38,715 nucleotides of DNA. It comes from Pseudomonadota bacterium. Its GTDB lineage: Bacteria; Pseudomonadota; Gammaproteobacteria; Arenicellales; UBA868. Location: the NCBI GenBank assembly GCA_018672825.1, contig JABHUE010000076.1, positions 1 to 38,715 on the forward strand, written 5' to 3'. A program made the translations under genes and the position numbers. How positions within the stretch are numbered: the first letter of the stretch is position 1; every line of letters starts with the position of its first letter. Positions 34,419 through 37,475 of the stretch are shown piece after piece. The notes under the pieces were generated by a model that made no database searches, was not told where the DNA came from, and saw only the letters and a list, made by a program, of their open reading frames with translations.

Positions 34419-37400
34419 ATGACCTCCGAAATCGAAATCAACATCGGATCTCAGTCTTCAACAACTGAAAAATCGGATACCGATCATGAGTACGCACCTG
34501 CTCCAATCGTTGATGGCGCGCGGCTCGGCCCTAATGTCATTAGCAGGCTTCTTGTCACATCTGACAGCGGTTATACCTATCTTGCCAATGATGGGCGCAC
34601 GGTTGTTCAGGAATTTTTCCCACAACAATTCGCAGTACGAGACGTTGACGGTATCTCTTTGCTGTTATGCGATTCAAAATTTAACCACGACTATGAACAA
34701 GGCTTAACTGAATTTTTATTATTAGCGCGCGTGCTAAGTCAGCTAGACCATCCCGGTCGAGTTGCGCGCTACGAAGAAAACGATGGCGCGGCGTGGTACT
34801 CAGTCGAGCTACCCGTCAAGGCAAGCCTTGCCGATCTTTTAGCTACCGGACAACGCTTACCCGAAGAAAACTTAAAAACGATTTTCCAATCAGCCGTGAC
34901 CTATCTCGAGGCGGCACACCATGTCGGCTTATTACATCTTGAATTAACACCCGAGCGCATCTTACTTGCGGAAGAAGACAAATTACTTATCTGTGGCTTC
35001 TCAACAGATAAGCTTCACTATCCTCCTGAAGATTTAACCGCATCTCATGACTATCGAGCGCCCGAACTTGCCAGTTTTCGCGGCCATTTAGGGAAATCGA
35101 CCGACTACTATTCGCTAGGCGCCATTTTGTATCAGGGGGCGTGCAGGGTTAATCCCCCTGACGCGCTTACTCGACTCGATGCAGTGGATAAACAAACTCC
35201 CGATCCCTTAACGTCAGCCAAAATTCTCGGAAAAGGTTTTTTTTCCGGTCCAACACTGTCGTTAATCGAAAGCCTTCTAATGCTTAAACCTGGCGATCGA
35301 CCCCAGAATGCTGACACACTGACTGATAATTTAGTCGACACGGGCGGTCTAAGTGACGCCATCAACACAAAAGTTGAGCAGATGGGCGCTGTTGGCGATT
35401 TACCTGTAATACCGCCTCCTGCTTCGCCACCATCCGCTGGCATCCCAACTCCGGTCTCAAAGAGTGATTCAACACCAAAAGATGAGACCGTTGCAAAGCG
35501 TTTTCGTGGCGCCTCTGCAATTGCTGTATCGGCGCTAGATAAAACCAGGTCCGTGCTCCTATCGCCAAATTCAGAAAAAAAGAAGGTCAATAAACCGTCG
35601 CCGCAGTCCAAGTCACGATCAGCCAAAACCAAGGACACTCGAAAAGAGCCTATTTTCAACTCGTCTCAAACTGTTATTAAAGAGGAACTCGACCTTCCAG
35701 ACCTCGGAAGTAAATCGCCGCGTTCATCCGAAATTGTTAACGACCTTGAAGTTGCTCGACGCACTCTCGCAGGCAATGCGTCCAGTCAGAAATCCTCAAA
35801 GGCTCCATTCAGTCTTGATCAGTTTTTGTCTGCAGCATTCTTTTTCCTGAACACCCAGGTCAGTCGATTGGAAAATAGCTTTTCCAAAGCAAAAGATCAA
35901 TTTCACTCCAAGTTTAAAAACCCGATCAAAGGGTCAAGCCTCCGACTCGCACTGACGATCACCATCATTCTTATTGTTCTGACCGGTGTCTATATTGTCG
36001 TTACGCCGCCGAGACCGGCAGGCACTAACACTGCGCCAACGACTATTGAAATCATCGGCGGCAACACAATTACCCCAGACAAGCCACAAGGGCTTGAGAT
36101 CGCCGCTGTGGACTTCGGGTCGTTTAATACTTCAGTTACTGATTCTGAGTTTGCACGTAACGACGATCTTACTCGAGTGAATGCTTATCGGGATGCAGAA
36201 CGGCTATCGCGCTTGAGCGAGCCTCATTTAGCGCGCGCAAGAGAGTTTCTTGCGAATGGCGCGCTCATATCTCCACCCAACGCAAACGCTTATAGCGAGT
36301 ATTCAGCCGTCGTTCGAATGGACCCAAGCAATAAAGAAGCCCGCCTGGGGCTAGATAGCGTGCTCACGCAGATAGTCTCTGAGGTCGATGGCCTGATTGT
36401 TCAATTCGATTTTGCCAGCGCGAGCGAGATGCTGTCGATCGCTCAGAAACTCGCTCCTGATAATCAGAAGCTCAAGCTAAAGAATGAATCAATAAGAATC
36501 GCCGAAGAGACGCGAAACCAGCAAGCAATCGCTGAACAGGCGAGAATTGATGCTGACGCAAAAAAAGCAACTGCCGAGCGGCAACGCAAGCAACAGATTG
36601 AAAAACTCCTCTCGAAGGCGCTTACCGCGTTTAACGACAACCGATTAGTCTCTCCTCCTGGTGAAAATGCACTAACACTTTATCGCGCTACGCTTGACCT
36701 CGATCCCAGCAACCAGAGAGCCCGCAATGGCCTAGGAAACATATCGTCAATATACATACGCCAAGCTCGTGATTCTCTTTCTATAAACAATCTTGAAGGC
36801 ACTGCCGATCATCTTGAAATAGCGTTATCCATTAATCCTGAAAACAAGGCAGCACTCAGCCTTAACCAACAGTTACAGCGACGAAAATACCTCGTAACCG
36901 AACAGCAACGTCTTCAAGCAGAAGCAAGGGTAAACATAAATCTTGCGCAGCAAATGTCAGACGAGCAAGATCAGCTTAATCTGTATAGTGGCATTCAAGC
37001 GTACTACGATGGCGATTATGCTCAAGCGCTTCAATTCCTAAAACCGCTCGCTGATAAAAACGATCCTCGTGCACAGGTTCGCGTTGCGAGAATGCTCCTT
37101 GAGGCTCGAGCAACAGGTCGCGATAAACCAGAGGCGATACGCATGTTTAGTGCAGCACTGGCACCGATACAACTCACCGCGAGTCAAGGGCATGCATGGG
37201 CTCAATCTGACCTTGCCGATTACTATTTTGATGGTTTAGTTATCGATCAAGACCGGCGAACGGCAGCAGTCTGGTACCAACGCGCAGCCGAGCAAGGATA
37301 TGCCCCCGCGCAGACCAATTTAGGATGGCTTTATTTTAATGGCTATGACGGCGTGGCCCCTAACCGGGCAGTTGCAATTCACTGGTTTAACGAGGCGGCA

Positions 37401-37475
37401 GCGCAGGGTAATCAAGCCGCTGCTAACAACCTTCGTGCACTCGGAGAGTCGGTTCCTCAATCTGCGGGTGGCTAG
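34419..37475 (+). CDS. membrane pseudokinase with TPR and Sel1 repeats
   Basis: 1018 residues. The N-terminal part (about 35-310) follows a Ser/Thr kinase fold: TVVQEFFPQQFAVRD matches the K-E-[FY]-[FLY]-P strand of bacterial kinases, HLELTPERILL the catalytic loop, CGF the DFG site, YRAPELASF the APE motif and STDYYSLGAILYQ helix F. All three catalytic signature residues are replaced (Lys to Gln64; HRD Asp to Glu175; DFG Asp to Cys192) and no glycine-rich loop is seen, so it is a pseudokinase. A Pro/Ser/Lys-rich linker, one transmembrane helix (about 509-530), TPR-like helical repeats (about 590-860) and Sel1 repeats (about 870-1005) follow. Topology suggests a cytoplasmic pseudokinase joined to periplasmic protein-interaction repeats. 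No kinase partner is nearby; role unknown. Confidence 0.85.
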   Translation: MTSEIEINIGSQSSTTEKSDTDHEYAPAPIVDGARLGPNVISRLLVTSDSGYTYLANDGRTVVQEFFPQQFAVRDVDGISLLLCDSKFNHDYEQGLTEFLLLARVLSQLDHPGRVARYEENDGAAWYSVELPVKASLADLLATGQRLPEENLKTIFQSAVTYLEAAHHVGLLHLELTPERILLAEEDKLLICGFSTDKLHYPPEDLTASHDYRAPELASFRGHLGKSTDYYSLGAILYQGACRVNPPDALTRLDAVDKQTPDPLTSAKILGKGFFSGPTLSLIESLLMLKPGDRPQNADTLTDNLVDTGGLSDAINTKVEQMGAVGDLPVIPPPASPPSAGIPTPVSKSDSTPKDETVAKRFRGASAIAVSALDKTRSVLLSPNSEKKKVNKPSPQSKSRSAKTKDTRKEPIFNSSQTVIKEELDLPDLGSKSPRSSEIVNDLEVARRTLAGNASSQKSSKAPFSLDQFLSAAFFFLNTQVSRLENSFSKAKDQFHSKFKNPIKGSSLRLALTITIILIVLTGVYIVVTPPRPAGTNTAPTTIEIIGGNTITPDKPQGLEIAAVDFGSFNTSVTDSEFARNDDLTRVNAYRDAERLSRLSEPHLARAREFLANGALISPPNANAYSEYSAVVRMDPSNKEARLGLDSVLTQIVSEVDGLIVQFDFASASEMLSIAQKLAPDNQKLKLKNESIRIAEETRNQQAIAEQARIDADAKKATAERQRKQQIEKLLSKALTAFNDNRLVSPPGENALTLYRATLDLDPSNQRARNGLGNISSIYIRQARDSLSINNLEGTADHLEIALSINPENKAALSLNQQLQRRKYLVTEQQRLQAEARVNINLAQQMSDEQDQLNLYSGIQAYYDGDYAQALQFLKPLADKNDPRAQVRVARMLLEARATGRDKPEAIRMFSAALAPIQLTASQGHAWAQSDLADYYFDGLVIDQDRRTAAVWYQRAAEQGYAPAQTNLGWLYFNGYDGVAPNRAVAIHWFNEAAAQGNQAAANNLRALGESVPQSAGG

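Follow-up and report, generated by a model that had tools for sequence, protein, structure and literature searches.

What does a protein kinase domain do once the residues that handle ATP are gone and the domain stays attached to a membrane protein? The question is raised by a gene on the forward strand of the window (the whole stretch of DNA analyzed, 38,715 nucleotides). The ORF listing gives this gene, at positions 34419 to 37475, an ATG start and a product of 1018 amino acids (aa), and its parts are as follows.

34419..37475, + strand: whole gene, 1018 aa, encoding a pseudokinase domain, linker, transmembrane (TM) helix, TPR-like modules and Sel1 repeats (ORF, Pfam)
34512..35327, + strand: pseudokinase domain, aa 32-303 (Pfam Pkinase at aa 106-301, profile match to PpkA, dN/dS)
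34608..34610, + strand: Gln64 replacing the VAIK lysine (alignment; Lys in 0 of 44 readable rows)
34722..34724, + strand: Leu102 replacing the alphaC glutamate (alignment)
34935..34943, + strand: His173-Leu174-Glu175 at the HRD position (alignment)
34995..35003, + strand: Gly193-Phe194-Ser195 at the DFG position (alignment)
35064..35066, + strand: Glu216 of the APE motif (alignment; retained in 46 of 46)
35103..35105, + strand: Asp229 of helix F (alignment; retained in 46 of 46)
35328..35945, + strand: variable linker on the cytoplasmic side, about aa 304-509 (dN/dS of 0.40 over aa 304-510)
35505..35543, + strand: conserved linker motif RGASAIAxSALxK, aa 363-375 (alignment)
35724..35768, + strand: conserved linker motif around xIxxDLExA, aa 436-450 (alignment)
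35946..36002, + strand: single TM helix, aa 510-528 (hydropathy, charge bias)
36147..37007, + strand: pair of TPR-like helical modules with a long helix after each, about aa 577-863, predicted to be periplasmic (AlphaFold, pLDDT 83.6)
37017..37439, + strand: Sel1 solenoid, about aa 867-1007 (Pfam, AlphaFold model, Foldseek; dN/dS 0.044 for aa 846-1018)

Domain homology and membrane topology

Pfam Pkinase matches aa 106-301 (E = 1.5e-14; 54.4 bits against a cut-off of 31.7), and Sel1 scores above its cut-off over two stretches (E = 2.7e-15; 56.6 bits). The TPR matches are weak and fall below the cut-off, and no model reached its cut-off in an NCBIfam search of the protein. The best solved relative of the N-terminal domain is the kinase domain of PpkA (PDB 5hnv), which aligns over nearly the whole domain with an E value of 1.6e-16 for the single sequence and 3.6e-37 for a profile of 14 family members. 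The AlphaFold model of this domain, made from an alignment of only 5 sequences (the window protein and four other loci), has a pLDDT of 36.2, so the kinase fold proposed in a first-pass annotation of the locus is supported as homology by Pfam and profile searches, and the structure model adds no confirmation.

The model of the C-terminal part, with a pLDDT of 83.6, is all-helical and comprises two TPR-like modules, a pair of long helices and a Sel1 solenoid (helices read by eye), and Foldseek matches this model to Sel1 and TPR structures. Only one strong hydrophobic segment occurs, at aa 510-528. The 30 residues before it contain 7 K/R and 2 D/E and the 30 after it contain 1 K/R, and by the positive-inside rule this excess of basic residues predicts an N-in/C-out topology in which the repeats would be periplasmic. 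Hydropathy and charge bias therefore agree, as predictions, with the single membrane helix and extracytoplasmic repeats of the first-pass annotation.

Catalytic residues in the window and across the order

Aligned with active relatives, the window domain has Gln64 for the VAIK lysine, Leu102 for the alphaC glutamate, Glu175 for the HRD aspartate, Arg180 for the catalytic-loop asparagine and Gly193 for the DFG aspartate. The losses at Gln64 and Glu175 had been read correctly from the sequence at the outset; that of the DFG aspartate is also real, but the VDFG of active relatives aligns with C192-G193-F194-S195, placing the substitution at Gly193, one residue on from the Cys192 first named. The changes at Leu102 and Arg180 were absent from that annotation. 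Its statement that the kinase frame is kept holds, since Glu216 (APE) and Asp229 (helix F) are both present, as is the structural Arg294 (helix I). All three residues whose absence generally defines a pseudokinase, namely the beta3 lysine, the HRD aspartate and the DFG aspartate, are missing, and the domain probably does not bind ATP; loss of motifs is not in itself proof against nucleotide binding or an atypical reaction.

In the window's own family (f1), 25 of 33 genomes contain a match at E <= 1e-20, and because most f1 genomes are incomplete drafts, some of the other 8 may reflect assembly gaps. Order-wide, matches at E <= 1e-12 occur in 90 of 109 genomes, Sel1-only and kinase-only matches included. 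In G032, near-identical gene copies lie by the ends of two contigs (L021 and L031), perhaps an assembly duplicate, and in G021 the orthologue is broken over several frames (L024 and L033), reflecting either gene disruption or an error in the draft assembly.

We aligned 46 kinase domains, taken from loci in a chosen part of the order (retrieved as two sets of 20 stretches) with near-duplicates within one genome included. The beta3 lysine is present in none of the 44 readable rows (Q in 40; E, H, R and Y in one each), and the DFG aspartate is missing from 45 of 46 (G in 43), the sole retention being in family f4. The HRD aspartate is missing from 32 of 46 rows, among them nearly all f1 rows, those of f3 and the one row each from f7 and f9, and the 14 rows that have it comprise all 11 from f6 and one each from f1, f4 and f5. 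The alphaC glutamate is missing from 33 of 44 readable rows, including every readable f1 and f3 row and the lone representatives of f4, f5 and f9; 10 of the 11 retentions are in f6 and one is in f7. By comparison, the APE glutamate, helix-F aspartate and helix-I arginine are each retained in 46 of 46. The window also has an activation segment with GFS and APE, 4 residues shorter than that of f6, and the pocket-lining positions Q64-E65, H173-L174-E175 and C192-G193-F194 are conserved in f1.

Erosion of the catalytic residues is graded across the families of the order, and losses common to the whole protein family indicate more than chance. Retention of the catalytic residues in homologues, which would have refuted the first-pass annotation, is not what is seen: a single HRD aspartate among 27 rows is the exception in f1, and the beta3 lysine and DFG aspartate are lost nearly order-wide.

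As an out-of-order control, 370 genomes of the class were scanned with a profile built from 22 of these domains, and the best 29 out-of-order matches fetched retain the lysine, HRD aspartate and DFG aspartate in 29 of 29 cases. A branch supported at 100/99 separates the 37 pseudokinases in a 47-domain tree from the 10 active kinases, which were hand-picked and include one from the window's genome and two from the same order. Because these last three do not group with the pseudokinases, the pseudokinases constitute a separate family and not a local type of kinase. At another locus (L081), two near-identical intact kinases in opposite orientation flank an 834-aa gene.

Bacterial pseudokinases are little studied, and the review that says so lists seven families (PMC12599244). 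In its passages on these families, the proteobacterial GLW pseudokinases resemble the window protein in the loss of all three motifs and in a TM helix after the domain, but they have GLW for HRD and Leu or Trp for the beta3 lysine, whereas the window has HLE and Gln. The DLHK family is described there as lacking a TM region and keeping HRD, unlike the window, with its TM helix at aa 510-528 and HLE, and ActPs3 (MviN) as having the activation loop and DFG deleted, where the window has GFS and the APE segment. The window family fits none of GLW, DLHK and ActPs3, and as these families are described in that source it is set apart from DYD, CP1, ActPs1 and ActPs2 by their taxa and linked domains only; it may already have been named in the 42-family study behind the review. 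A retained HRD aspartate like that of DLHK is seen in the f6 relatives. In a narrow literature search by title and abstract, we found no published protein in which a kinase or pseudokinase is joined to Sel1.

Selection on the domain and relatives that lack it

Ratios of dN/dS were calculated by the Nei-Gojobori method between the window gene and its 90%-identical orthologue L036, a single genome pair. They are lowest in the kinase domain (aa 32-303; 0.041) and in Sel1 (0.044), and reach 0.24 in the TPR region and 0.40 in the linker. In this one close pair, purifying selection on the dead domain is strong and matches the constraint on the best-kept part of the protein. Identity to three more distant members of the genus is 62-66% in the kinase domain and 56-60% in the periplasmic half. 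Within the linker, RGASAIAxSALxK and the DLExA motif are kept in f1 and R(K/R/Q)EPxF is kept in the genus, and these short motifs appear to resemble docking motifs.

Orthologues in f2 and f10, of about 560-700 aa, gave no kinase match; after a short N-terminus and a TM helix they share the TPR and Sel1 parts of the window protein. A tree of the C-terminal part (56 rows, leaving out rows shorter than 250 aa and the duplicates L033, L034, L036-L039, L042-L046 and L048) contains 38 rows with the kinase domain and 18 without it, with three changes of state; L023 and L065 were scored as kinase-bearing because their domain is on another contig. The tree alone cannot separate gain from loss of the kinase domain. 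Loss is preferred, and gain disfavored, because the kinase and C-terminal trees both unite f1 with f3, because the kinase-less f6 genome G068 groups with kinase-bearing f6 (96/95, on a long branch) and retains the f6 neighbor genes, and because proteins of the form kinase-TM-TPR are present outside the order.

Of eight such out-of-order proteins fetched (TM judged by eye), 7 have intact motifs and the eighth is cut by a contig end. Those at L118, L120, L121 and L124 share the order of parts and the TPR repeat type of the window protein but differ from it in their intact VAIK, HRD and DFG. Full-length matches to a C-terminal profile in the scan of the class came, among the matches listed, from the order alone (4 of 370 genomes). 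Since some lineages lack the kinase domain, the core function evidently does not require the cytoplasmic module.

A proposed scaffold across the inner membrane and its alternatives

With a probability of roughly 0.6, we favor the view that the protein is an inner-membrane scaffold, a former receptor kinase that has lost its ATP-handling residues and combines a dead cytoplasmic docking domain with a periplasmic TPR-Sel1 rod. The ancestor would have been a receptor-type Ser/Thr kinase (kinase, TM helix, periplasmic TPR repeats) of a type that persists in intact form elsewhere in the class; its ATP-handling residues would have been lost inside the order, and the kinase fold kept as a cytoplasmic docking surface. 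The Sel1/TPR part would bind a cell envelope partner, plausibly a peptidoglycan enzyme or a regulator of one, the dead domain and the linker motifs would hold a cytoplasmic partner, and the state or place of one partner would be relayed to the other without phosphotransfer. We infer this order of events, the scaffold role and the envelope partner for the window protein; the HRD aspartate kept in 14 of 46 rows means that distant members could retain some chemistry.

Among known systems, PpkA is a regulator of the type VI secretion system (T6SS) with a C-terminus different from that of the window protein, and in our alignment it, unlike the window, keeps the IKE lysine. EssB/YukC is not known to have a TPR/Sel1 rod. 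A dead kinase domain in a transmembrane protein is real here, but not as unusual a device as the first-pass annotation held, since EssB/YukC and MviN are transmembrane pseudokinases (PMC12599244). As these sources describe it, EssB/YukC (T7SSb) shares with the window protein a cytoplasmic pseudokinase, a TM helix, an outside domain and a scaffold role (PMC12599244, PMC9600267), and is said not to bind ATP and to contact all parts of its secretion system (PMC9600267); unlike the window protein, it is a secretion component of Firmicutes with a degraded G-loop and a short activation loop. The MviN pseudokinase domain of Mycobacterium tuberculosis is described as dead, membrane-borne, cell-wall-linked and partner-recruiting, as proposed here, and it recruits FhaA, restraining peptidoglycan synthesis; it differs in being actinobacterial, in its deleted DFG and in its FHA partner (PMC12599244). 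No FHA domain was found in the window's genome. For the periplasmic side, the cited passages describe IltA and ExoR, Sel1 proteins without a kinase domain, as using their repeats to bind an enzyme or sensor of the envelope (PMC10746161, PMC7327166); IltA binds and inhibits the lytic transglycosylase MltF (PMC10746161). They also place RgsF, which has TPR/Sel1 repeats, in the polar growth set (PMC7327166).

The window gene is flanked by a divergent aminotransferase gene and a convergent HIT gene. The aminotransferase neighbor is kept in 4 of 4 f1 loci examined (the window, L036, L038 and L039) and in 3 of 4 f3 loci, the fourth of which ends nearby. In the f2 genus g7, 9 of 10 loci have a PG_binding_1 lipoprotein gene upstream in the same orientation, and in 6 of them the distance is 13-146 bases (Pfam was run on one of these genes, and lipoprotein nature was judged by eye), and this hint of peptidoglycan comes from the kinase-less f2 relatives alone. 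In f2 loci L067-L070, L074-L076, L084 and L085, ccm-like genes occur on the side opposite the lipoprotein gene. As for the phosphatase or FHA genes whose co-occurrence had been raised, the window's genome has no FHA domain and one PP2C gene, which adjoins a kinase-like gene, and both it and the canonical kinase lie away from the pseudokinase gene. The kinase-like gene beside PP2C (L003 and L125, contig C97) has HGD, and LDMF replacing DFG.

Eukaryotic pseudokinases often activate true kinases, and the window protein could likewise be an allosteric partner of the one canonical kinase in its genome (contig C64). That kinase is intact, belongs to the same superfamily and is also present in 23 of 33 f1 genomes. 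Such a partnership we consider unlikely: six f1 genomes (G001-G006, genera g2/g3) gave no C64-type kinase, and five of these six encode the pseudokinase protein; the kinase is also not a neighbor, making any interaction purely putative. A PpkA-like regulator of T6SS is highly implausible. No solved relative scores better than PpkA, and one VipA match is present in the window's genome (contig C141, L156, with one internal stop codon), but only 9 of the order's 109 genomes contain VipA, a number well below that of genomes with the pseudokinase family, the window's genome has no FHA domain and the catalytic residues are lost; identity with PpkA itself was rejected on the lost residues and this lack of T6SS linkage.

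It is also unlikely, though less so than the T6SS role, that the altered pocket binds nucleotide and performs another transfer, for which the relevant part of PMC12599244 offers SelO (AMPylation) and SidJ (glutamylation) as precedents. The 14 rows with an HRD aspartate and the conserved pocket-lining positions of f1 are consistent with such chemistry, but the window is changed at the lysine, alphaC glutamate, HRD aspartate, catalytic asparagine and DFG aspartate, strands 1-3 have no invariant Lys or Arg in a 14-row alignment, and the active site of SidJ, in the same account, reuses ATP- and metal-binding residues. The absence of the kinase domain from f2, f10 and G068, together with the stepwise erosion of catalytic residues, could instead mark a decaying relic on its way to loss, with function carried by the periplasmic part alone. 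A relic is hard to reconcile with a dN/dS of 0.041, as low as that of Sel1 and set against 0.40 in the linker, or with higher identity in the domain than in the periplasmic half among the more distant genus members, and we judge it quite unlikely.

A bolder and doubtful reading is that one order displays the full course of a receptor, from an active kinase, through a form without the lysine and DFG aspartate, to a dead but selected domain and finally to bare periplasmic repeats, with the dead state of an undescribed pseudokinase family signaling across the membrane by conformation or docking and without phosphotransfer. On one recognizable membrane protein, the family provides a natural gradient that runs from intact relatives through half-dead and dead forms to absence of the domain, making it possible to ask which functions of a kinase domain survive the loss of catalysis. 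It likewise allows one to ask what benefit a Gram-negative cell draws from maintaining a dead kinase across the membrane from a rod of periplasmic repeats.
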